DNA of 64,000 bases from positions 3,286,001 to 3,350,000 of the forward strand of contig SMLU01000001.1 of NCBI GenBank assembly GCA_007859745.1, given 5' to 3'. Source of the DNA: Phycisphaerae bacterium RAS1 (GTDB taxonomy: Bacteria > Planctomycetota > Phycisphaerae > UBA1845 > Fen-1342). Both the position numbers and the translations under genes were made by a program. Below the pieces are notes generated by a model that saw only the letters and a list, made by a program, of their open reading frames with translations, searched no databases and was not told the DNA's origin. How positions within the stretch are numbered: the first letter of the stretch is position 1; each line of letters opens with the position of its first letter. This document shows positions 1 to 56,449 of the stretch, piece by piece.

Positions 1-1937
1 GCGTCGCGATTACGAACGTCACGTACACCGGCGATCCGCACGCCGCGGGAATTTTCGCCGGCGGAACCGGCATCGTCGGCTTTGACGGCGGCATCATGCT
101 CAGCAGCGGAGACATCGCCTTCGTGCCCGGACCGAACACGCAGGACGACGCCACTGCAAACAACGGGCTGCTCGGCGATCCCGATCTCGACGCACTCATT
201 CCGGGATACCAGACCTACGACGCGACCGTACTGGAATTCGATTTCGAATGCTCCGGCACGCAAGTCGTCCTCTTTCAGTACGTCTTCACCTCCGAAGAGT
301 ACAACGAGTGGGTCAACTCGCCCTTCAACGACGTGTTCGGGTTCTTCCTCAACGGGCAGAACATCGCTTTGGTTCCCGGCAGCGGCGGGCTGGCGACCAG
401 CATCAACAACGTCAACTGCGACAATCCCTACAACCCGCCCAACGGGAGCTTCTGCAACCTGTACATCAATAACGACTGCGACGACGTGCCGCCCGGCACG
501 TATCCCTGCGCCGGGGCGCGCGATACGCAGATGGACGGGCTGCTGGTGGTGCTGACAGCGACGGGCACGCTCCAGCCCGGACTGAACCACATCAAGCTGG
601 CGATCGCCGACGCCGGCGACCCCATTCTCGACTCAAACGTGTTCATTCAGGGGCAGAGCTTCACCTGCGGAACGCCCAGCGGCGCCTGCTGCCACACGAC
701 CGCGCAGACGTGCGAGAACAACGTGGCCGAGGTCAACTGCCAGGCGCCCGGCGACGTGTGGAGCGTCGGCCTGGCGTGCAGCCAGCTCAATCCGCCTTGC
801 ATCCAGACTCAGCCGGGCGCGGGCGAGGACTGCCTGCATACGATTCTCATCCCCGCGCTGCCCTATCTCAACGCGAACACGACCTGCGGCATGGACAACA
901 ACTACGCCGACACCTGCCTGGGCACGTTCGACAACGGCGACGACATCCTCTACGAGCTGAACCTGGCCAGCGCCGTGACCGTCAGCATCACCGTGACCGG
1001 CGCGACGCCCGCCGACGACTGGATCGGCGTCGCGATCGGCAACACCTGCCCGCCGGCCGCGAAGTGCCTGGCTTTCGCGACCACCAGCGACACGGTCGCA
1101 ACGATCAGCGACCTTCCGCTGCCGGCCGGCGTCTATTTCCTGATGATCGACCGCTGGCCGCTGGACCAGGAGTGCATGAACTTCACCCTCAACATCACGA
1201 CCGGCGTCCCCACCGGAGCGTGCTGCCACACGCTCGCGCAGCTCTGCGATGACAATGTGCTGGAAGCGGATTGCCAGTCGGCTGGCGACGTCTGGAGCGG
1301 CGGCGTGGCCTGCAGCCAGCTCGCGCCGCCCTGCACGCCGACCCAGAACGACGGCCGCGACTGCGAGTTCCCGATCATCGTCGGCGCGCTGCCCTACAGC
1401 GACGTGAACTCGACCTGCGGCATGCACGAGGACTACTCCACCACGTGCCTGGGCGCATTCGACGACGGCGACGACATCCTCTATGAACTGCACGTCGCTG
1501 CCCCGCAGACCGTCAACATCACCGTCACGGGCGCAACGCCGGCCGATAACTGGATCGGCGTGTCCCTCGCGGATACATGCCCGGCCGGGGCGACCTGCAT
1601 CGCCCAGGCAACCAGCAGCGTTGGAGCGGCGTTGATGTCAAACGTCGCCCTCAACCCCGGCATTTACTACCTGATGGTCGACTGCCAGCCGGTGGACGTC
1701 GAGTGCGTCGACTTTATGCTGGACATCACGCTCCAGGCCACGTCGCCGGGCGATATGAACTGTGACGGCAGCGTCGATATCCTGGACATCAACCCGTTCG
1801 TCCTGGCGCTCTCCGACCCGGCCGGCTACGCCGCCCAGTACCCTGAATGCGACATCGGCAACGGAGACATGAACGGAGACGGCGACGTGAACGTGCTGGA
1901 TATCAACCCGTTCGTCGACCTCTTAAGCGGCGGGTGA
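1..1937 (+). CDS. Choice-of-anchor L protein with C-terminal dockerin-like tail (5' partial)
   Basis: The frame is open from base 3, so the gene starts before the window; the ATG at 96 is internal. The first ~190 visible residues match the choice-of-anchor L domain (FTSEEYNEWVNSPFNDVFGF, ALVPGSGG). Two copies of a Cys-rich motif follow (GACCHT...CQ..GDVWS.G.ACSQL.PPC), each leading into a beta-rich unit with TCGM and DDILYEL. The last ~60 residues are a dockerin-like pair of Ca-binding loops (GDMNCDGSVDILDINPF and [17 protein letters not shown]), ending in LLSGG. It is probably exported and surface-associated. The export signal lies outside the window and the function is unknown. The same tail occurs on the proteins at 20825, 22647 and 35117, which suggests a shared anchoring or sorting module rather than a cellulosome. 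Confidence 0.85.
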   Translation, partial: VAITNVTYTGDPHAAGIFAGGTGIVGFDGGIMLSSGDIAFVPGPNTQDDATANNGLLGDPDLDALIPGYQTYDATVLEFDFECSGTQVVLFQYVFTSEEYNEWVNSPFNDVFGFFLNGQNIALVPGSGGLATSINNVNCDNPYNPPNGSFCNLYINNDCDDVPPGTYPCAGARDTQMDGLLVVLTATGTLQPGLNHIKLAIADAGDPILDSNVFIQGQSFTCGTPSGACCHTTAQTCENNVAEVNCQAPGDVWSVGLACSQLNPPCIQTQPGAGEDCLHTILIPALPYLNANTTCGMDNNYADTCLGTFDNGDDILYELNLASAVTVSITVTGATPADDWIGVAIGNTCPPAAKCLAFATTSDTVATISDLPLPAGVYFLMIDRWPLDQECMNFTLNITTGVPTGACCHTLAQLCDDNVLEADCQSAGDVWSGGVACSQLAPPCTPTQNDGRDCEFPIIVGALPYSDVNSTCGMHEDYSTTCLGAFDDGDDILYELHVAAPQTVNITVTGATPADNWIGVSLADTCPAGATCIAQATSSVGAALMSNVALNPGIYYLMVDCQPVDVECVDFMLDITLQATSPGDMNCDGSVDILDINPFVLALSDPAGYAAQYPECDIGNGDMNGDGDVNVLDINPFVDLLSGG

Positions 1938-1953
1938 CCGCGGCTGAGTCGTG

Positions 1954-2017
1954 ATCCGAGCCGCGCGTGTAAGCAAGCGGTTCTTATGCCCCCGCTCCCT
2001 CACGGTCGCGGCTCGGA
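1954..2017. repeat. Palindromic repeat family A
   Basis: The arms contain CCGAGCCGCGCG and the complementary CGCGGCTCGG, around a core with CGCTTGCTTACGCGCG-type sequence. It is related to the copies at 33568, 43852 and 63607 and to half copies at 12942 and 29199. This family carries TAA/TTA triplets and is seen only between genes. Confidence 0.8.
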
Positions 2018-2151
2018 ATGAGTTTGGGGACAGCTTCGAGCATCGGGGCGGCGCGTGCCACCCGAGCCTGTCTGGCGCGCAGCCCCGCGCCGACTGACGC
2101 CCTATACTCCTGACAAGTGTCGAGCCGAACCCGACGCCCGTCAGGACGCCG

Positions 2152-3120
2152 ATGAGCAGCCCATCCGCCGCCTCGCCGCATAACCGCCTCGGCCTCAACT
2201 ATCGCCGCGTGCCCCCGCGGCGACTGAGCATTCCGATCGTCGACGCTCATACGCACGTCCGCGAGTGCGCCAGTACCGGCGCCTTCTTCGAAGCGGCCGC
2301 GGCGTACGGCGTGTCGCGGGTCCTCTCCATGTCGCCGGTCGAACACGTCGAGCGCTTGCAGGAGCAATTCGGCGAGCGGATCGGGTTCATCGCCGTGCCG
2401 CGCTGGCGTGACTTCGGCCTGTCCGAGGCGTTTCGCGACAAATGGATGGCTGACCTGGGCGCGTTTCGGGCGGCGGGGGCGCAGCTATGCAAGTTCTGGG
2501 TCGCGCCGCCGATGCGCGAAAAGCACGGACTGACGCTCGATCATCCGTTCCTCGCCCCGGTCATTCGACACGCGCTGGAGCTGGGATATCAGTTCCTGCT
2601 GCACGTCGGCGACCCGAGCGTCTGGTGGCGGCCCGCCGGCAAATACGCGAATACCGCCGTCTTCGGCACAAAGCCGCAACAGTACGAACCGTTGGAGCAC
2701 TTCCTGAACGTGACACGCGACCGGTTGGTGATCCTGGCGCACATGGGCGGGTCGATCGAGGAGCCGGAATTCCTGCAGAGTCTGCTCGACCGCCATCCGC
2801 GGCTGCACCTGGATTGCAGCGCGACCAAGTGGATCGTCCGCGAGACGGCCCGCCAGCCGGCGGCCGCCCGTGCGTTCGTGATTCGAAACGCGGATCGGAT
2901 TCTCTTCGGCAGTGACGTGGTGGTCGATGAGAAGTACGATTTCGACCACTACGCCAGCCGCTACTGGTGTCACCAGATGATGTGGGAATCTTCCTATCGC
3001 GGCGAAAGCCCGATCGAAGACCCTGACGCGGAGCTGCCGCCGCGACTTGCCGGACTTGACTTGCCGGACGACGTGCTGCGGAAGATGTCTGGCGAGAATG
3101 TAGCTCGGCTGGGTTTGTGA
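2152..3120 (+). CDS. Amidohydrolase family (TIM-barrel metal-dependent hydrolase)
   Basis: A 322-residue protein of the amidohydrolase-2 type. The metal-binding HxH is at residues 33-35 (VDAHTHVRE). Later barrel-strand motifs are HVGDPSVWW (~155), LAHMGGS (~195) and LFGSDVV (~250), the last giving the conserved Asp. No signal peptide is visible, so it is probably cytoplasmic. The ATG at 2152 has only a weak upstream purine stretch, but the next in-frame starts would remove the strand carrying HxH. The substrate cannot be deduced. A repeat (family J) separates it from the downstream dehydrogenase, so co-transcription is uncertain. Confidence 0.8.
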   Translation: MSSPSAASPHNRLGLNYRRVPPRRLSIPIVDAHTHVRECASTGAFFEAAAAYGVSRVLSMSPVEHVERLQEQFGERIGFIAVPRWRDFGLSEAFRDKWMADLGAFRAAGAQLCKFWVAPPMREKHGLTLDHPFLAPVIRHALELGYQFLLHVGDPSVWWRPAGKYANTAVFGTKPQQYEPLEHFLNVTRDRLVILAHMGGSIEEPEFLQSLLDRHPRLHLDCSATKWIVRETARQPAAARAFVIRNADRILFGSDVVVDEKYDFDHYASRYWCHQMMWESSYRGESPIEDPDAELPPRLAGLDLPDDVLRKMSGENVARLGL

Positions 3121-43472: not shown

Positions 43473-43607
43473 TGCAACGCCGGCGCCGCTCCGAAGTGCT
43501 CCTCGCCGAAACGCCGCCGATCCTCCCGCACGCAGGCGCCGTCGCAGCGCGTGAATCCATCCTGCTCGGGTGCGTGACACTCTCGGCGGCGCGCGTCTTC
43601 AGCCCTG

Positions 43608-43795
43608 GAAGGGCGACAGAATAAAGCCCACGGCGTGAGCCGTGGGAAAATCGGCAACGCGCGAATCAGCCCCGGACGGGGCGAAAGAAGTCTGCATACG
43701 TCACCCCGAGGACGTTTCTTTCGCCCCATCCGGGGCTTGTGTTCTCCACGCTCGTGTTCCCACGGCTCGCGCCGTGGGCTTTATTCTTTCGCCGC
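43608..43795. repeat. ~190-base nested palindrome (family N)
   Basis: Outer arms AATAAAGCCCACGGC and GCCGTGGGCTTTATT, each with an inner hairpin (CCCACGGC...GCCGTGGG), and middle arms GCCCCGGACGGGGCGAAAG and CTTTCGCCCCATCCGGGGC. Nothing coding seen in this gap (43443-44279). Confidence 0.8.
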
Positions 43796-43833
43796 TACGC
43801 GGCTAAGCCCGGCCGCGGGCGAGTGGCATAGGT

Positions 43834-44279: not shown

Positions 44280-46145
44280 TTACTCCGCCCCCTTCAGAAC
44301 CTCCCGCTGCACCCGCCGGGCCTGCTCCGCGTCCGCCACGTTGTCGCTGTGGCACGCAAGTTTCGCGGGCGAGACGCCCGCGCCCCCCAATGCCGGCGAG
44401 ACGCCCGCACTCCCCGGCGCCGGCGGGACGCCGACGCTCCCCTTCGCCCGGGTTGCCAGCAGGGCCTGCTGCTCCTGCGTCAGCCCCGGAGACTTGGCCG
44501 CGACCTTGAGCGGAACATAGCCCTCCGCCTTCCCGCTGGCCCACTCCTGAATCTCCTTGCTGATTCGCATCGAGCACCAGTCATGCCCGCACATGGCGCA
44601 GAAGTCGGTATCGACCTCCAAATCCTCGTCATGCAGCGCCCGCGCCGTCTCGCCGTCGAAGGCCAGCTCAAAATGCTTCGGCCAGTTCAGCGCCGCGCGC
44701 GCCTTGCTCAGGTCGTCGTCCCATTGCCGCGCGGCGCGGATGCCGCGGGCAATGTCGCCGGCGTGGGCGGCGATCTTGTAGGCGATGCAGCCGGCTTTCA
44801 CATCGTCGGCCTTCGGCAGTCCGACGTGCTCCTTGGGCGTCACGTAGCAGAGCATCGCCGCACCGGCCCGCGCCGCCTCGGTCGCGCCGATCGCGGACGT
44901 GATGTGGTCGTAGCCGGGGAAAACGTCGGTGACGAGCGGGCCAAGCACGTAGAACGGCGCATCGTCGCACACCGTCCGCTGATGCTCCATGTTCCACGCG
45001 ATCTCGTTCAGCGGCACGTGCCCCGGCCCCTCGACCATCACCTGCACGCCGGCCTCGCGCGCCCGCTGCACCAGCTCCGCCAATACGTGCAGCTCCGCGA
45101 GCTGGGCCGGATCGCTGGCGTCCGCGAGGCAGCCGGGCCGCACGCCGTCGCCGAGCGAATAGGTGACGTCGTACTTCCGCATGACGGCGGAGATTTCGTC
45201 AAACAGGTCGTACATCGGGTTCTGCTTGTTGTGGTGAATCATCCACTTGGCCAGCAGCGACCCGCCGCGGCTGACGAGGCCGGTGATTCGGCCGCGAATG
45301 AGCGCCAGGTGCTCCTTCAGAATGCCGGCGTGGATCGTGAAGTAATCGACGCCCTGCTGCGCCTGATGCTCGACTTCGCGCAGAATGTCATCATAGGTGA
45401 GTTCTTCAATCCGCTTGCCGCCGGTTCGCTGTTCCCTGTTCCCTGTTCCCTGTTCCCTCGGCGCAATCATGCTGTAGATCGGCACAGTCCCGACCGGCAC
45501 GACGCTGTTGTCAATGATCGCTTGGCGACATTCGTCGAGCCGGCCGCCAGTGGAAAGGTCCATCACCGTGTCGGCGCCGTAGAGAATCGCATGTCGGAGC
45601 TTGTCGAGCTCTTCGCGCGTGTCGCTGCTGACCGGGCTGGCGCCCTGGTTGGCGTTGATCTTGGTGGTGATGCTGCGGCCGATGCCGGTCGGGTCAAGCC
45701 GCTTGGCGGCCCGCTCGCCGCGGCAATGCGCCGGATCATCAATCCACGCGCGGCGTTGGGCGACGGTCTGATTGACCCAGTAGGCGGACGCGGACGTAGC
45801 CGTCGGATGACCGACCGCGGGCCCGTAGCGTCCGACCTCCGAGTCGGACGAACCGTAGCGTCGGCCCTCTGTGGCCGACGGAGGTTCAGAGTAGCGAGTA
45901 GCGAGTAGCGAGTTGGAATGCGCAGCGCTGCCGCCGTTCTTCTTCAACTCGCTACTCGCTACTCTTAACTTTGAACTCGGCTCGGCCCCCGCCGAGCCGG
46001 CCAGATGCCTCACATTCGCCGGTATGACAATCGCGCCGCGTGCGACGCCGTCGCGGATGCACTCGGGCGTCACGTTCTCACGAACCGCGACGCGGGCCAT
46101 TTCAGCGGTGATGACGCCCTTGCGGGCGGATTCGAGCTGGGTCAT
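44280..46145 (-). CDS. thiC: Phosphomethylpyrimidine synthase ThiC, with in-frame repeat insertions
   Basis: A 621-residue radical-SAM enzyme making the thiamine pyrimidine (HMP-P) from AIR. The core is clear: [80 protein letters not shown], and the C-terminal cluster motif CAMCGHDWC. Three stretches do not belong to the family. Residues ~57-108 and ~228-242 are translated repeats ([14 protein letters not shown]..., [13 protein letters not shown]), and ~569-594 is [16 protein letters not shown].... Each falls at a likely surface loop or linker, with the flanking family sequence intact. ATG 46145 overlaps the hepT stop (ATGA). No TPP riboswitch is evident directly upstream, because toxin-antitoxin genes occupy that place. 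Confidence 0.92.
44364..44441. repeat. Family D/F-like repeat inside thiC
   Basis: Units GGCGAGACGCCCGC...CCCC repeated three times, in frame between residues ~569 and 594 of ThiC. Confidence 0.8.
45420..45464. repeat. TTCCCTG tandem repeat (family I) inside thiC
   Basis: Tandem seven-base units of GTTCCCT, four copies plus flanks, encoding [11 protein letters not shown] short relative lies between genes at 51660-51684. Confidence 0.85.
45822..45977. repeat. Composite repeat block inside thiC
   Basis: Three adjoining units: GTAGCGTCCGACCTCCGAGT, then GTAGCGTCGGCCCTCTGTGG (as at 41058), then a hairpin of GAGTAGCGAGTAGCGAGTAG and CTCGCTACTCGCTACTC arms. All in frame; ThiC residues ~57-108. 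Confidence 0.85.
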
Positions 46146-46495
46146 GGAGTATCTCCTGGCGCTTCCGCGCGCAGAACCTCGGCGATCTGCGAACGGAGCG
46201 CTGGTATGTCTGTTGTCGCGGCGGCCCACACGACGGGCCATTTCACGCTGAAATAGGCGTGAATCGCGATGTTTCGGAAGGCCACGATTTCGGGCCAGGG
46301 GATCTCGGGATGCCGATTTCGCAACTCTGCGGAAATTCGGCCGGCCGCTTCTCCGATCACCATCAACTTCTGAAGCACGGCGCTGCGTAGCAGGTCGTTG
46401 CCGACGAACTCGTGCTCCTTGATGTTCGCCAGGAACGCCGCGGCAGAGTCGCTCGCCTCAATGATGTCCGACAAGTAGAGATCGTCACGCCGCAA
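46142..46495 (-). CDS. hepT: HepT-like ribonuclease/toxin (HEPN, DUF86)
   Basis: A 117-residue HEPN protein of the HepT family. The catalytic Rx4HxY motif is present as [11 protein letters not shown] (~85-95), together with [19 protein letters not shown], typical of DUF86. Its start overlaps the end of mntA by 11 bases, and its stop overlaps the thiC start as ATGA. In characterised type VII systems MntA AMPylates the Tyr of HepT to silence its RNase activity. All key residues are present, so the pair is probably functional. Confidence 0.88.
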
Positions 46496-46787
46496 AGATC
46501 ACCTCCGCCTCGGCGAGGACGTGGTCGCGGATGCGTGCTTTCAGGCCGTCCTTGGGCACTAGATCCACCTTTCGGCCAAAGAGCGCCTCCAATTCGTGCG
46601 CCAGCCGAGCAAGCGCGATGAACCCGATCTGCGCCGAAGGCTCAAATTCAACCAGCAGGTCGATATCGCTGTCGGGTCGCGCGTCGCCGCGGGCGGCGGA
46701 ACCGAATACGGCCAGTTCGCGAACGTGATGCCGGCGGCAAAGAGCCGCCAGCTCGCTGGCGAGGGCGTCAATTGGGATCATGGTCAT
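46485..46787 (-). CDS. mntA: MntA-type minimal nucleotidyltransferase antitoxin
   Basis: A 100-residue protein. The MNT motif GSAARGDARPDSDIDLLVEF gives the GSxxxG and DxD metal site; the third Asp is in RKVDLV. ATG 46787 is coupled by ATGA to the stop of the preceding mini-gene; MIPID at 46781 is an alternative. By family it transfers AMP to HepT and neutralises it. Confidence 0.88.
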   Translation of the reverse strand: MTMIPIDALASELAALCRRHHVRELAVFGSAARGDARPDSDIDLLVEFEPSAQIGFIALARLAHELEALFGRKVDLVPKDGLKARIRDHVLAEAEVIFAA

Positions 46788-46918
46788 TCTGCTCGCATCG
46801 GCGACGCTCCGCGCGGTGTGCAAGCACAAACAACCCCGCGCGTCGCAATCTCACGGATCGCGACACGGATCACATCTGAAGTAATGAAACCATCGCGGGC
46901 GGATTCAAGCGGGGTCAT
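46784..46918 (-). pseudogene. Duplicated 5' fragment of thiC upstream of mntA
   Basis: The 44-codon frame begins MTPLESARDGFITSDVIRVA then IREIATRG. ThiC itself begins [20 protein letters not shown] then VREN. At the DNA level 22 of the first 24 bases agree, and similarity continues for about 84 bases before the two diverge. The fragment starts with ATGA overlapping the stop of the PD-(D/E)XK gene and ends with ATGA overlapping mntA. It is therefore a remnant or duplicate of the thiC start, with the mntA-hepT pair lying between it and the real gene. Whether the peptide is still made is unknown. Confidence 0.78.
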
Positions 46919-47580
46919 CGGTGTACCTCGCGTGCATTAAGGGTCATTGCACTCGTAACGTCCAGCATCAGGTATCGAAAAAGTGCGAATCTACCGGCGT
47001 TGTGCGCCGAATAGTCCCACCATTGAGCGCGGTAAGCCCCCTCCAAATGCAGCGCAGCGTCGCGGCCTCGTGTCGTCCCCGGCGATGCCGCTGCGCCCCA
47101 GGCCAGTCGACCGCTAATAGGCCGCCCGTCATGCAATCGGAACGCAGCATCCACTGTCTCATTTCTCGCCGCAGACCAGTATGCGCTGTCGTTCGTCAGG
47201 AGAATTGCATAGCAGCGAGCCCGGGCGTACGTGTGGCAGACGCGCTCGAGGCGTGTAACGTCTTTCAGAAAGTCATAGCGGCCCAAGTCCTGCGCGCTTT
47301 GGTTCTTCAGCAGAAACCGCTGGCCAGCAACAGCAAGATCCGCTGCGCCGGTTTTGTATTTCAATTCTACTGCAATCGGGGCGTCACCCATCCAAACCCA
47401 GACGTCGCAGTACTCTGTGCCGTTCTCGCCTCGTAGCGGCATCTCCAAGCGAACGCGAGCATCACGGAATTCCTCGTGAAGTCCCCAAGCGAGCGCGTGC
47501 TGAACATCCGCTTCGGAATGGAAGACCGGGCGCGTGTTGCAGAGATTGCGCAAGATCGTCACCATCACGTCGGCGGTCAC
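46915..47580 (-). CDS. PD-(D/E)XK nuclease-like protein
   Basis: A 221-residue protein starting at GTG 47580 (GTGA overlap with an 18-residue mini-frame). Residues ~55-75 read EYCDVWVWMGDAPIAVELKY: Asp59 and Glu72-x-Lys74 are spaced like the D...ExK core of PD-(D/E)XK nucleases. N-terminal helices (SEADVQHALAWGLHEEFRD) are also typical of that fold. No cysteine clusters or DNA-binding domain are obvious. It is inside a run of HEPN/MNT genes, which suggests a defence or conflict role. The assignment rests on motif spacing only. Confidence 0.6.
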   Translation of the reverse strand: MTADVMVTILRNLCNTRPVFHSEADVQHALAWGLHEEFRDARVRLEMPLRGENGTEYCDVWVWMGDAPIAVELKYKTGAADLAVAGQRFLLKNQSAQDLGRYDFLKDVTRLERVCHTYARARCYAILLTNDSAYWSAARNETVDAAFRLHDGRPISGRLAWGAAASPGTTRGRDAALHLEGAYRAQWWDYSAHNAGRFALFRYLMLDVTSAMTLNAREVHR

Positions 47581-47633
47581 AGTCTCAGTCCTTCCAACAT
47601 CGTGCTGCGACTCTCAATCGCGTGGCAGGTCAT
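47577..47633 (-). other. 18-residue mini-frame joining HEPN gene and PD-(D/E)XK gene
   Basis: ATG 47633 overlaps the HEPN stop (ATGA) and its TGA overlaps the next GTG (GTGA). It reads MTCHAIESRSTMLEGLRL. It could be a worn third trace of the thiC start (MT..xESxR), or chance. Possible translational relay. Confidence 0.35.
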
Positions 47634-48080
47634 CGTTTCTTCGTTCGCCGTTGCATACTCTTCGCTACTTTTCGCTTACGTGTGCGCCCGACCGAATCGG
47701 GTTCCAGCTTCAAGCGAGCTCGCACCAATTCGCGCACTTTGTTGCAGGTTGCGACGGCTCCCTTGGCCATCGCTCGGTCTGCGAAGACGCCAGGATAGCG
47801 CACTTCGACGGCGTGCGTCGTCAAGTCCTGAAGCTCCGGGCGCAAGTGTGCCCAATCCGGCTCCAGCGCGACCAGTTGGTCGAGGAGCTTTACGAGGTTG
47901 TGCGTCTTGTCGAAGTAGACCGCTGCGTCGTGAAGACACGCCTTCAGGTATTTCTCTGCGCACTGCTGGGCGTGAAAACACACGCTGTCCAGATTCGGAG
48001 CCGCGCGCGCGGAGTTCACGGCGCGCGACGGTCCAGTCACCCTCGGCCTTCTGAACCCACTCAGCGGTCAGCGGATTCAT
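47630..48080 (-). pseudogene. HEPN-domain protein gene, frameshifted
   Basis: It begins MNPLTAEWVQKAEGDWTVARRELRAR from ATG 48080. The homologous remainder (APNLDSVCFHAQQCAEKYLKA...HNLVKLLDQL...YPGVFADRAMAKGAVATCNKVRELV) is in another frame. The two halves together align end to end with the intact HEPN protein at 48698-49162 (MKPLTREWIAKAEEDFAVARREMRTR...ICFHAQQCAEKYLKA). The break falls in a run of five CG units (~48002-48011); one more CG would restore the frame. So it is a 2-base slip: a pseudogene, a phase-variable gene, or a sequencing error. Its start overlaps the upstream nucleotidyltransferase by 20 bases. Confidence 0.8.
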
Positions 48081-48381
48081 GCAACACCCTGCCCTTCGTA
48101 ACAATGTCTCGCAAGAACCAATCGTTCAGCGCAATTCGCCGGCGCAATTCGATCGGCGAGCGCACCACGAGATCAACGGCGAACGGCGGACTGACTGTTC
48201 TCAACACCTTCGCTGCGGTGCGCGCGGGATGCCCGGAGTAGTCCATCACCACCATCAAATCCACGTCGGAATCTCCCGTCGGCTCGCCGTACGCGTACGA
48301 GCCGAACAGGATGATCCGCCGCGGCTTGAACGCCGCCGCAATCCGGCGGGCGAAGGCGCGGATGTCTCGCATGGGGACCAT
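48061..48381 (-). CDS. MNT-type nucleotidyltransferase (partner of the frameshifted HEPN gene)
   Basis: A 106-residue minimal nucleotidyltransferase: LFGSYAYGEPTGDSDVDLMVV has GSxxxG and DxD; FAVDLVVRS gives the third Asp. ATG 48381, and a second ATG at MRDIRAF, are possible. Its 20-base overlap with the HEPN start matches the overlap in the other module (49143-49162), showing the two modules share ancestry. Predicted antitoxin or regulator of the HEPN partner, by analogy with MntA/HepT. Confidence 0.85.
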   Translation of the reverse strand: MVPMRDIRAFARRIAAAFKPRRIILFGSYAYGEPTGDSDVDLMVVMDYSGHPARTAAKVLRTVSPPFAVDLVVRSPIELRRRIALNDWFLRDIVTKGRVLHESADR

Positions 48382-48412
48382 TACCCGAGGCTCCGGCTCG
48401 TCATCGTTTCAG

Positions 48413-48619
48413 TCATTCTCCAAACCGCTCCCATCTCGCAATTTCCGCCGGCGTCATCTCCACGCGAAGCCCGAACGCCGCAAGCTTCTCCTTCACCTCG
48501 GCCAGCGACGTCCGCCCGAACGACCGCAGTGTCAGCAGCCGCTGCTCCGGCCACTGCACCAGTTCGCGAATCGTCCGCACCGCGGCGGCTTCGAGGCAGT
48601 TGTTCGCCCGGACGGACAA
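48413..48619 (-). CDS. Free-standing RNA polymerase alpha-subunit C-terminal-domain-like protein
   Basis: The frame reads DLSVRANNCLEAAAVRTIRE then LVQWPEQRLLTLRSFGRTSL then AEVKEKLAAFGLRVEMTP. This is the alpha-CTD signature (LSVRxxNCLxxAxIxTIxxLV...LLxxxNFGxKSLxEIKxxLxxxGL). No RpoA N-terminal domain is present. The only conventional start in frame is TTG 48619; the frame is open back to 48697, right after the HEPN stop, and that stretch encodes ...IDNIFDDPLERLDLS, which also looks like alpha-CTD, so a non-standard start or readthrough is possible. Alpha-CTD binds DNA UP elements and activators; here it may be a regulator or polymerase decoy within the island. Confidence 0.75.
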   Translation of the reverse strand: MSVRANNCLEAAAVRTIRELVQWPEQRLLTLRSFGRTSLAEVKEKLAAFGLRVEMTPAEIARWERFGE

Positions 48620-48697
48620 ATCGAGGCGCTCCAGCGGATCATCGAAGATGTTATCGATACCGGACTCCGTGGCGCACAGGTAGCGCTGACAGCGCGG

Positions 48698-49162
48698 TCA
48701 TTTGCCGCGTTTTCGCTTGCGCGTCGTGGACCGCCGGAGCCTGCGCCGAGGGGGCGCCCGCTTTCGACGCTTCGGGGCGATCGGAACTCCGAGTTTCATT
48801 CGCATTGCCTCGCGGATCAGCGTCGCCGCCCTGAGCGCTCCACGGGCATCTGCGCGGGATGCGGTCGCGCCCGGGTAACGATACTTGACGCCGAAGCTTG
48901 TCAGTCCGTCAGCGGCCGGCGCGAGCAGGCCAAGTCCGGCGTCTGATTTGGCAAGCTCGGCAAGCAGCTTCGCCAAGTCGTGCGTTCGCTCAATCGGCGT
49001 TCCGCTCTCGCACAGCCGCGCTTTCAAGTACTTCTCCGCGCACTGCTGCGCGTGAAAACAGATCGCTCCAAATGCGGGATGCGTGCGTGTGCGCATCTCG
49101 CGCCGCGCTACGGCGAAGTCCTCCTCGGCCTTCGCGATCCACTCACGCGTGAGCGGCTTCAT
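48698..49162 (-). CDS. HEPN-domain protein
   Basis: A 154-residue HEPN protein. ATG 49162 (MKPLTREWIAKAEEDF) overlaps the upstream fusion gene by 20 bases. ICFHAQQCAEKYLKA (~34-48) and RTHDLAKLLAEL (~58-69) are the conserved helices of this HEPN group, which pairs with MNT nucleotidyltransferases. The C-terminus is very basic (RRKRAPPRRRLRRSTTRKRK), suggesting nucleic-acid contact. A toxin, or a partner of the MNT domain upstream, by gene context. Confidence 0.83.
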   Translation of the reverse strand: MKPLTREWIAKAEEDFAVARREMRTRTHPAFGAICFHAQQCAEKYLKARLCESGTPIERTHDLAKLLAELAKSDAGLGLLAPAADGLTSFGVKYRYPGATASRADARGALRAATLIREAMRMKLGVPIAPKRRKRAPPRRRLRRSTTRKRKRGK

Positions 49163-50345
49163 AGAGCACGAATCCGCGTTCAAGGATTTCGCGCATGAAG
49201 GGGTCTCCAAGCTCCACGCGGCGCTTGATTTGCCCTTCGGAGCGCGTCAACAGGTCCATTGCAAAGTCACATCGAATCCGCCCACGGATTTCGAGAGCGC
49301 GATCGTCTTGCGGCTGACTCCCTGCGAAAACGACGAGCAGGTCGACATCGGAATCTCCGCGGGGCTGCCCGTAAGCGTGGGAGCCGAACAGTATGACTCG
49401 CGTGGGTTCGAACTCGCGCGCAACGTCGCGAGCAAAGCGATCGATCGCCGCTGCCCTGTCCGGAGTACGATCACAGTTGATCGACCCTTGATCCAGGCAT
49501 TTGCCGGTGTGTCCGCACTCGATCTCACCGGTGCGATCGCGCAGCCTGAAGCGATAGCGCTCGTCGAAATCGCCTCGGAATAGCCCGTCCGGAATCGGAT
49601 GTCGTGCAAACGGATTCTCAAACACGCGTACGCGCTTCACCAGCGCGAGTTCGCTTGGAATCCGCTCGCGCAGCTCCTCAAGCACGCGCCAACTTTCGAG
49701 CAACTCCTCATGCGTGGGCCATTTCCGCGTGTCGCGGCGCGGCACGCGCTCGCGGTACGCGCGTTCAAACTCCGGATTGCGCTTGCGGTACGTAGACAGG
49801 ACGGCGATCGCACTGACGGTGGTGTTCTGGGCTGCGCCGGACTTCGGGTCGATCATTTTGCCGTTCCGGGTGAATGCGCGCGTCGGTCCTGGCCACGCGC
49901 CGTCGCGGCTCGCGCCGATCGGAAGCGACCACGCGAAATCGCCCAACATCGCGGCAAATAAGAACTCCGGCTCATCACGAAATGTCCAGTCGTTCTCGTT
50001 GCGCAATACCAGCACACAGCAATCACTACGGTAGGGCTTGAACTGCTTCCGCGATTCGTGAATCTCCTTGCGCACGCTTTTGTAGCCGCCATCGAAACAA
50101 AAAACCCCGCGCGGAAGCGGAAACGGCCTGAACAGGGTCTTTACCTCGCACCTCACGTTGTTGGTTTCGTATTCAAACACGAAATCGGGGTTCTTCTTGC
50201 CGGGTCGCTTGCTCGGTTCGTACGCCGCGCAGATGCCATGATCTTGCAGGTATCTGGCGAACCACTTTTCCGAGGCTTGGCTGGCGGCCTCGATCGCGGC
50301 AGGATCGGCGGGAACGCGCTGCCGAGGACTGCGAGTGGCGGGCAC
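49143..50345 (-). CDS. PD-(D/E)XK-like domain fused to MNT nucleotidyltransferase
   Basis: A 400-residue protein. GTG 50345 has AAGGAG six bases upstream; the longer frame runs into repeat K. N-terminal part: helical start, then KKNPDFVFEYETNNVRCEVK, in which Asp54 and Glu67-x-Lys69 match the PD-(D/E)XK pattern. Residues ~100-290 are a mixed region without a known match. C-terminal ~110 residues: ILFGSHAYGQPRGDSDVDLL (~318-337) with GSxxxG and DxD, and FAMDLLTRS with the third Asp, i.e. a complete MNT domain. No in-frame ATG/GTG/TTG lies just before the MNT part, so it is a real fusion in this sequence. Its 3' end overlaps the HEPN gene. I know of no named system with this fusion. Confidence 0.72.
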   Translation of the reverse strand: MPATRSPRQRVPADPAAIEAASQASEKWFARYLQDHGICAAYEPSKRPGKKNPDFVFEYETNNVRCEVKTLFRPFPLPRGVFCFDGGYKSVRKEIHESRKQFKPYRSDCCVLVLRNENDWTFRDEPEFLFAAMLGDFAWSLPIGASRDGAWPGPTRAFTRNGKMIDPKSGAAQNTTVSAIAVLSTYRKRNPEFERAYRERVPRRDTRKWPTHEELLESWRVLEELRERIPSELALVKRVRVFENPFARHPIPDGLFRGDFDERYRFRLRDRTGEIECGHTGKCLDQGSINCDRTPDRAAAIDRFARDVAREFEPTRVILFGSHAYGQPRGDSDVDLLVVFAGSQPQDDRALEIRGRIRCDFAMDLLTRSEGQIKRRVELGDPFMREILERGFVLYEAAHA

Positions 50346-50387
50346 GAACTGCTCCTTCCCTACGCAGGCGGCTGACACGGCCAGGAT

Positions 50388-50443
50388 GACGGGTTGAAAA
50401 CCCGTCGAAACAGACACCGGTTGGAAACCGGTGCCACACAGGC
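50388..50443. repeat. Palindromic repeat family K
   Basis: GGTTGAAAACCCGTCGAAAC and CACCGGTTGGAAACCGGTG, just upstream of the island's first gene. The rest of the 50346-50608 gap shows no gene; GATTGTATCACCTTTCGCG near 50538 is a locally AT-richer stretch. Confidence 0.8.
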
Positions 50444-50608
50444 CCTGTCGGCTCGTCGCTGATCAGGTTCAAAGGGTCTGCCGGCGTCCGCCGCCGGCAT
50501 CTCAGGCCCGCCGCAGCGGACCGCCCCTAGGCGTTCAGATTGTATCACCTTTCGCGTTGAATCCTATCGGCAGCCGGCATCGCAGTGGCGGCAACCGAAC
50601 CCGGCGCG

Positions 50609-55035: not shown

Positions 55036-56449
55036 GGGTCGGCATCAACTTAGTGGGTAGTTTTCAGGCGACCCTGGCTAACGGTCGCGTGTTCCAGACG
55101 CGCTCCCAGTCGCTGTTGAGGTGGGCGACGCGGAGCGAGAGGACGTTTTGGGATCCGGCCTTGGACCAGCGCATTCCGCAGCGTTTCATTCGCAGGGCGA
55201 CCACGTGCTTGCAGGCCGCTTCGACCCGGCCCGAGCCGATGTCCAGGCCCATCTCTCGGAAGCGGTCATAGGCCAATCGATCGTCCTGGTTCTCGATGTA
55301 GGTGATCAGGGCTTGTAACGCCGCCCGCTTGTTCTTGGCGCGCGTGCCGCAGCGCTCGGCCTTCAACTGGTCGAGAATCGCGCGCACCTGCCCGTCCCAC
55401 AGCAGCGTTTCGATCGATTTCACCCAGCTCGCCGTTTCCGGCGTTTGCTCGCCCCCCAGGGCCCGCCCGCAGGTCCACACGTGCTCCATCGCGTGATACC
55501 AGTCCACGATGCAGACCGCCTCTTTCAACAACCCGCCGATGTGCTCCCAGATCCACCGCGCCCCGTCGCCCAGCAGCACCACGCGCCGGGCCCGCTCCAG
55601 GCCGCAGCGACAGGCCAATTCCCAGACGAACGACACGAACGCCGCCGCGCCTTCAAACCGCACCCCGTAGCGCACTTCGCGATCCACGCCGGCGGGCTGG
55701 CCGGGCTGATCCCAATAGCACGCCACGCACTTGGCTTCGTGCCAGCCGTCCGCCTGGTGCACCTGCACGCCGTCCACGGTCACATAGAACGTCTCCGGCG
55801 ACGCCTCCGCCGGCGGCGCTTTCCACTCCGCCATGGCCGCGGCCCGTTGCTGCTCCTGCTGCGCCGCCACCCCGCCCACCCGCTCCGTCAGCCGCTCAAT
55901 CGTCGCTTCGCTCAGCCGCTGACCGGTCAGCGCGTACAACGTGGACGCGGCGCTGGCAAACGTGTTCTCAATCCCCAAGAGCGCCGCCGCCTTCGCCAGA
56001 CCGACGCTCTCGGCCCCCGCCCCCAACCCCACCCGCTCGTCGTACGGCAACGCCGACCGGCCGCAAGACCGGCAGCGGTAGTACGCACGCCGAATCCCGA
56101 TCTGACCCATCTGCGTCGCAATCAGCTTGGGCCGCTGATCCACAAACCGCTGCGCCCCGCCGCACCCGCACACCCGGCTGGTTCCCTCATACCCCAGCTT
56201 CTGCCGCCCCAAATGAAGCTCGACCGCTCTTGCCCCGATCCGCCGAACCGCCTCCAGAACCGCCGTTTCCACCTGCGTCAAATCATCCGACAGCAAAACC
56301 CCATCCTCCCCGCAAAACGCCAACACCTGCTCGGCAACGCTGGTAAGATCCACGTTTGGCCCTCCTTGGCCAATGGCTCGCTCAAACCCCACGCCATTGA
56401 AACCGAGGCCAGGGCCTTTGTCTTTTACCCACTAAGTTGATGCCGACCC
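55036..56449. mobile_element. Complete insertion sequence, ISKra4-like, 1414 bp
   Basis: Perfect 24-base terminal inverted repeats (55036-55059 and 56426-56449, beginning GGGTCGGCATCAACTTAG), one transposase gene on the minus strand, and a 9-base direct repeat GCGCGGCGC on each side. It interrupts the 3' end of the RND efflux gene. Confidence 0.9.
55064..56392 (-). CDS. ISKra4-family transposase
   Basis: A 442-residue transposase. N-terminal helical part, then a zinc-ribbon-like segment (RVCGCGG... YYRCRSCGRSALPYDERVG, ~75-120). The DDE-type core is suggested by FYVTVDGVQV (first Asp), VVLLGDGARWIWEH plus IVDWYHAMEHVW (second Asp region), and a C-terminal GLDIGSGRVEAACKHVV with the Glu. This wording is characteristic of ISKra4 transposases. 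The frame is intact and the element has clean ends, so it may be active. Confidence 0.9.
   Translation of the reverse strand: MGFERAIGQGGPNVDLTSVAEQVLAFCGEDGVLLSDDLTQVETAVLEAVRRIGARAVELHLGRQKLGYEGTSRVCGCGGAQRFVDQRPKLIATQMGQIGIRRAYYRCRSCGRSALPYDERVGLGAGAESVGLAKAAALLGIENTFASAASTLYALTGQRLSEATIERLTERVGGVAAQQEQQRAAAMAEWKAPPAEASPETFYVTVDGVQVHQADGWHEAKCVACYWDQPGQPAGVDREVRYGVRFEGAAAFVSFVWELACRCGLERARRVVLLGDGARWIWEHIGGLLKEAVCIVDWYHAMEHVWTCGRALGGEQTPETASWVKSIETLLWDGQVRAILDQLKAERCGTRAKNKRAALQALITYIENQDDRLAYDRFREMGLDIGSGRVEAACKHVVALRMKRCGMRWSKAGSQNVLSLRVAHLNSDWERVWNTRPLARVA

Follow-up and report, generated by a model that had tools for sequence, protein, structure and literature searches.

An alpha-CTD reading frame without ATG or GTG among HEPN/MNT modules in the TPP riboswitch-thiC interval of a planctomycete

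HEPN/MNT (HepT/MntA, type VII) toxin-antitoxin modules (PMC7641770) are the described systems to which the neighbours of the reading frame considered here belong, and the C-terminal domain of the RNA polymerase alpha subunit (alpha-CTD) is no conserved part of them. As a precedent, an MNT-HEPN module is inserted in a biosynthetic operon of Thermus, and such modules were once proposed to include a third component that binds DNA (PMC2701414). The alpha-CTD itself is attacked or bound by phages (Rac; PMC7552054). A literature search returned no paper joining HEPN with an alpha-CTD and, among the hits listed and as judged by title and abstract, none on the TPP riboswitch or thiC together with toxin-antitoxin systems or HEPN that describes the site reported below.

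Several kinds of protein can be set beside the domain itself. The RpoA CTDs of the same family (PF03118) share with the frame the fold, the near-invariant core, and the DNA-contact residues at 54-67% identity (BLAST), whereas the frame has no N-terminal dimerisation body, an altered 287-type surface, a C-terminal helix of its own, a long branch, and a different locus. A TPR protein with tandem alpha-CTDs (523 codons here) likewise carries the domain outside RpoA, but places two copies C-terminally behind its TPR part and is 42% identical to the frame; this protein (1189-2757, minus strand, of L002) is present in most of the order's genomes searched and, by match counts, is spread widely in the phylum. 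PRK07758/NF005841 resembles the frame in size (about 95 amino acids) and in its one alpha-CTD-like domain, yet at 21 bits, where the cut-off is 115, the frame is a non-member. Seven families in other classes of the phylum encode small alpha-CTD proteins that stand alone and start with ATG, and their conserved representatives (L292-L300; M.RIPL...LEMSTAEIGLSVRTTNCLEERG...ISNFGEKTLEEVY) are, like the frame, small proteins with a single alpha-CTD encoded apart from rpoA; no function for them was found in the searches made. With 34-40% identity to this family, neither its LEMSTAEI...ISNFGEKTLEEVY pattern nor its ATG start, and a closer relation to RpoA, the frame falls outside it. The free alpha-CTD as a kind, which the initial annotation called unusual beside toxin modules, is thus already known from other planctomycetes; in this class it is unusual, nearly all sampled genomes having exactly three CTD matches.

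The window, a stretch of 64,000 nucleotides from Phycisphaerae bacterium RAS1 (contig SMLU01000001.1, positions 3,286,001 to 3,350,000), carries on its minus strand, in order, a TPP riboswitch, a nuclease-like/MNT fusion, HEPN1, the CTD frame, MNT2, HEPN2, an unnamed ORF, MNT3, HepT, and thiC (Table 1). No other TPP riboswitch was found in the genome. The nuclease-like/MNT fusion, which may be a new type of antitoxin/effector fusion, has a 40% identical relative in L227 (genome G003), and the HEPN2 frameshift lies near a CG-repeat, with two bases fewer or one more than in HEPN1. What had been described at the outset as an island does contain the HEPN/MNT neighbours, but the setting proved to be a cargo array between riboswitch and thiC. 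The stops of all five cargo units overlap ATGAC, the last two of these being the thiC remnant and the true thiC start; recognisable thiC sequence is present at just these two of the five ATGAC ends.

Table 1. Features of the TPP riboswitch-thiC interval, in positions of the window.
Feature	Position	Strand	Basis or remark
TPP riboswitch, operon head	50425-50538	-	31.7 bits, below the Rfam curated cut-off of 54.3; full model and canonical core matched
MNT (PF01909) fused behind an N-terminal PD...EVK nuclease-like part	49143-50417	-	nuclease motif by eye
HEPN1 (PF05168), basic tail	48698-49162	-	TGA is the natural end; ATGA overlaps in another frame
alpha-CTD open frame, 94 codons	48413-48697	-	complete domain; coding G+C signature
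GGAG (48668-48665), 6-base spacer, ATC (48658-48656)	48656-48668	-	putative lost or non-canonical start
alpha-CTD proper (PF03118)	48479-48652	-	Pfam, AlphaFold, Foldseek
MNT2, antitoxin-type nucleotidyltransferase	48061-48381	-	profile match
HEPN2	47630-48082	-	frame departs from that of HEPN1 after about codon 27
ORF with D...VELK nuclease-like motif	46915-47580	-	motif by eye, no Pfam match; stop overlaps thiC 5' remnant
Duplicated thiC 5' end (MTPLESARDGFITSDVIRVAIREIAT)	46841-46918	-	lies between modules
MNT3 (MntA-like)	46485-46829	-	profile match
HepT-like RNase toxin (PF01934)	46142-46495	-	TGA overlaps thiC ATG
thiC, last gene of riboswitch operon	44280-46145	-	

The bounds first given for the frame, its opening after the HEPN stop, and its want of ATG or GTG were all borne out, as was its character as an alpha-CTD without the RpoA body, adjoining HEPN/MNT genes, 94 codons between stops; the strand is now set as minus, a plus-strand translation having been rejected as it yields no CTD. 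The first codon follows directly upon the HEPN1 TGA (48698-48700) and lies in the frame of HEPN1, and the closing TGA (48413-48415) sits within ATGAC. G+C by codon position (0.67/0.47/0.81) gives a coding signature, the third-position component of which tracks the frame from the HEPN1 stop onward. In a neutral-decay simulation, the probability of meeting no stop across 56 codons was 0.39.

The Pfam model RNA_pol_A_CTD (PF03118; curated cut-off 23.8 bits) matches the frame with 66 bits (E 2.4e-18) over positions 9-66 of 67 (58/67), whereas the RpoA model TIGR02027 reaches 65 bits against a cut-off of 228 and the N-terminal assembly domain is absent, so the product is not an RpoA. The AlphaFold model (mean pLDDT 82.8) has residues 1-13 disordered, helices at residues 22-25, 29-37, 43-48, 51-55, and 62-74, and an additional C-terminal helix at 83-92; it shows the alpha-CTD fold with two helix-hairpin-helix units, superposed by Foldseek on the E. 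coli alpha-CTD structures 3n4m and 3n97 at an rmsd of 0.6-0.9 Å across 66-68 residues. Taken together, the Pfam and Foldseek matches lie far beyond chance. In the alignment, the frame retains the equivalents of R265, N268, C269, G296, S299, and E302, the DNA-contact residues of the E. coli domain; position 298 in the same numbering is T, which the genome's own RpoA has as well. Nine residues are not seen in any sampled RpoA, and three of the nine fall at 285, 287, and 288, the activator-contact patch of E. coli alpha. This pattern of substitutions suggests that DNA contact was kept and protein (activator) contact altered in the product.

CTDs were located in the intact rpoA of the genome, in the TPR protein (two copies), and in this frame, and nowhere else. 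Near identity with the chromosomal rpoA, which the initial annotation would have taken as the mark of a dead fragment, was not observed: the proteins are 54% identical (BLAST), and the DNA can be aligned over 61 bases only, at 77% identity. A recent duplicate or dead copy of the intact rpoA was rejected on these grounds. Among 82 distinct order-level RpoA CTDs, the six closest all belong to the same family (61-64% identity over 64 compared columns). In a tree of RpoA CTDs, from which L212 was omitted as being no clear RpoA, the end branch of the frame measures 1.81; the median is 0.15 and the second-longest branch 0.61, so that the frame's branch is about 3 times the next longest and 12 times the median. 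Its position in the tree is unsure given the few columns. Near-invariant RpoA columns are kept in 19 of 20 cases, and differences from the nearest RpoA affect 1 of these 20 as compared with 22 of the 44 variable columns (Fisher p 5e-4). Because the differences avoid near-invariant columns, most of the divergence arose while the fold mattered, be it in a free gene or within an unsampled RpoA from which the constraint may have come. These comparisons trace the frame to an RpoA within the same family-level lineage.

An alternative is that the frame is just the 3' part of an rpoA-like gene from an unsampled relative, which arrived by recombination and was never functional here. RpoA CTDs are the nearest relatives of the frame, a start codon is lacking, and partial genes do pile up at the site (the broken HEPN2 and the thiC fragments). 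The fragment would, however, have to break at the domain edge, and a random cut of a 370-codon gene is unlikely to do so because the open frame starts within 15 codons of the domain; on the 3' side, the frame continues into a 13-residue tail unique to it and not into an rpoA-rplQ junction, and the longest branch among the sampled RpoA CTDs is only about a third of its own. A fragment of this kind is regarded as possible, though on the doubtful side.

No canonical start with a ribosome-binding site was found in the frame. Homology to RpoA starts around residue 11-14, with the ATC of Table 1 at its edge, and the residue aligned to this codon is methionine in ten sampled RpoAs, the genome's own included. 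From the HEPN1 scar to the ATC there are 43 bases, the corresponding distances in other units being 35, 53, and 89. The most economical, if unproven, reading is that the ATC behind GGAG represents a lost or non-canonical start. AUC is used as a start only very rarely, and at 66% G+C the GGAG may stand near the ATC by chance. The sole listed start is TTG 48619, the use of which would remove the conserved N-terminal arm, while ATG 48701, in the ATGA overlap at the HEPN1 stop, is out of the alpha-CTD frame and ends after 16 codons. The frame is probably silent or barely translated.

Two further ways of dispensing with a start of its own were weighed. A HEPN-CTD fusion, made by UGA-C readthrough or broken by a single nonsense change, would account for the common frame of HEPN1 and CTD and for the coding signature that sets in directly after the HEPN1 stop, in a TGA C context that is leaky; it is nonetheless highly improbable, the shared frame being expected by chance in 1 of 3 cases and HEPN relatives with the same basic tail (L040/L116, L117, and L118) stopping at the same place, so that the stop is ancestral. 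No more credit is given to an assembly error, in which an indel in 48650-48700 would hide a CTD gene started at ATG 48701 and ATGA-coupled to HEPN1. The ATGA overlap falls precisely at the HEPN1 stop and HEPN2 likewise has an indel, but third-position G+C follows the CTD frame up to that stop, the spot contains no homopolymer, and both rpoC and rpoA are intact. A generally poor assembly was rejected, as rpoC is intact across 1484 codons.

Protein searches returned no orthologue of the frame in 100 relatives or in 392 genomes of the phylum, nor did searches with its C-terminal half and tail alone; hence no orthologue was found that could show selection at this locus. Short CTD frames in three relatives' loci (L145, L146, and L147) were rejected as free genes, being rpoA or the tandem protein at contig ends or assembly gaps. 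Conservation beside HEPN/MNT genes, proposed early on as a check, was not seen: a CTD accompanies HEPN in none of 109 other HEPN loci (L115, which has one, is the window itself) and occurs in none of 40 thiC-upstream stretches of relatives, some of them short, so that the frame does not appear as a conserved component of HEPN/MNT modules. Phage and plasmid collections gave nothing beyond the usual RpoA and distant CTDs, at less than 60% identity, and viral contigs no close relative; the parallel with phage mimics of polymerase parts, drawn in the initial annotation for a decoy or modulator, thus has no support from sequence, as neither phages nor viral contigs yielded a comparable free CTD.

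These searches bear on the view that the alpha-CTD is expressed freely, through coupling to HEPN1 or from TTG 48619, as a decoy for promoters or phage factors or as a DNA-binding partner of HEPN/MNT. The intact frame, its coding signature, the kept DNA face, and the compact operon agree with it, as do the phage attack on the alpha-CTD and the third component proposed for MNT-HEPN. Against it stand the missing canonical start, the loss of the conserved arm from TTG 48619, the out-of-frame ATG 48701, and the lack of conservation beside HEPN/MNT, and it is held to be unlikely. Its more elaborate form, in which the domain, made from a non-canonical start, is the third component or decoy of the HEPN/MNT array and is tied to thiamine by the TPP riboswitch, is more unlikely still. 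On the structural model, the decoy idea is possible if unsupported, and such a role is doubtful because it needs expression and the start is missing.

The preferred explanation, to which a probability of roughly 0.55 is assigned, is that of a once-functional alpha-CTD gene from a family-level RpoA that was captured as cargo, now has AUC in place of its start, and is probably silent. An alpha-CTD gene from an RpoA of the same family would have been taken up as one cargo unit at the TPP riboswitch-thiC hotspot; ending in ATGAC as the other cargo units do, the frame is consistent with capture as a unit of its own. The original product would have been a small DNA-binding domain standing by itself, about 81 residues long (IDNIFDDPLERLDLSVRANNC...RFGE) and begun at the domain edge. 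With AUC as the start, the gene would be either silent or weakly translated by reinitiation after HEPN1. Present decay of the array fits, since HEPN2, another reading frame there, is frameshifted, and production of the alpha-CTD passenger may have ended. Any product still made would be expected to bind AT-rich or UP-element-like DNA via the kept 265-type face, with the polymerase tether absent and the activator-contact face altered, and to be no more than a mild competitor at a local scale or an accessory that binds DNA. Under the preferred explanation, the DNA-binding tail of the polymerase can travel as separate, fast-evolving cargo beside toxin modules.

Of greater interest than the alpha-CTD domain is the hotspot itself. 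HEPN/MNT-type cargo lies just upstream of thiC in eight relatives: HEPN/MNT or HepT/MNT genes occupy the interval in G019, G022, G003, G498, and G061, all five of which show the riboswitch, and adjoin thiC in G011, G064, and G026, where the riboswitch was not detected; in G008 and G023, riboswitch and thiC are present and HEPN is absent. Between modules, the window, G003, G061, and G019 carry copies of the thiC 5' end. HEPN/MNT and HepT/MNT modules have landed in the interval repeatedly, the duplicated thiC 5' ends being the scars, and a recurrent toxin-antitoxin site in these planctomycetes is a newly found setting. In the simplest account, incoming [module-thiC] DNA would have recombined repeatedly at thiC. 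As the cargo would be transcribed under the riboswitch, vitamin-B1 status could gate the toxin modules.

Across the riboswitch-thiC intervals (44280-50538, minus strand, in the window; L220, L223, L227, L228, and L238), modules are often ATGA-coupled to thiC. By eye, a Doc/Fic-like toxin ORF precedes thiC in L238 (4785-5401, together with a putative antitoxin-like ORF) and in L220 (2862-3254), both read with thiC on the right. In G064, two CRISPR-DR16 repeat-like matches below the gathering score (L224, 91-135 and 300-336) lie a few kb upstream of thiC. In the window, a 442-aa ORF near the array (55064-56392, minus strand) is by its look a putative transposase, and Acido-Lenti-1 RNA is matched twice with scores exceeding the gathering score, at 43601-43646 (minus strand) and, about 110 bases away, at 43759-43804 (plus strand).
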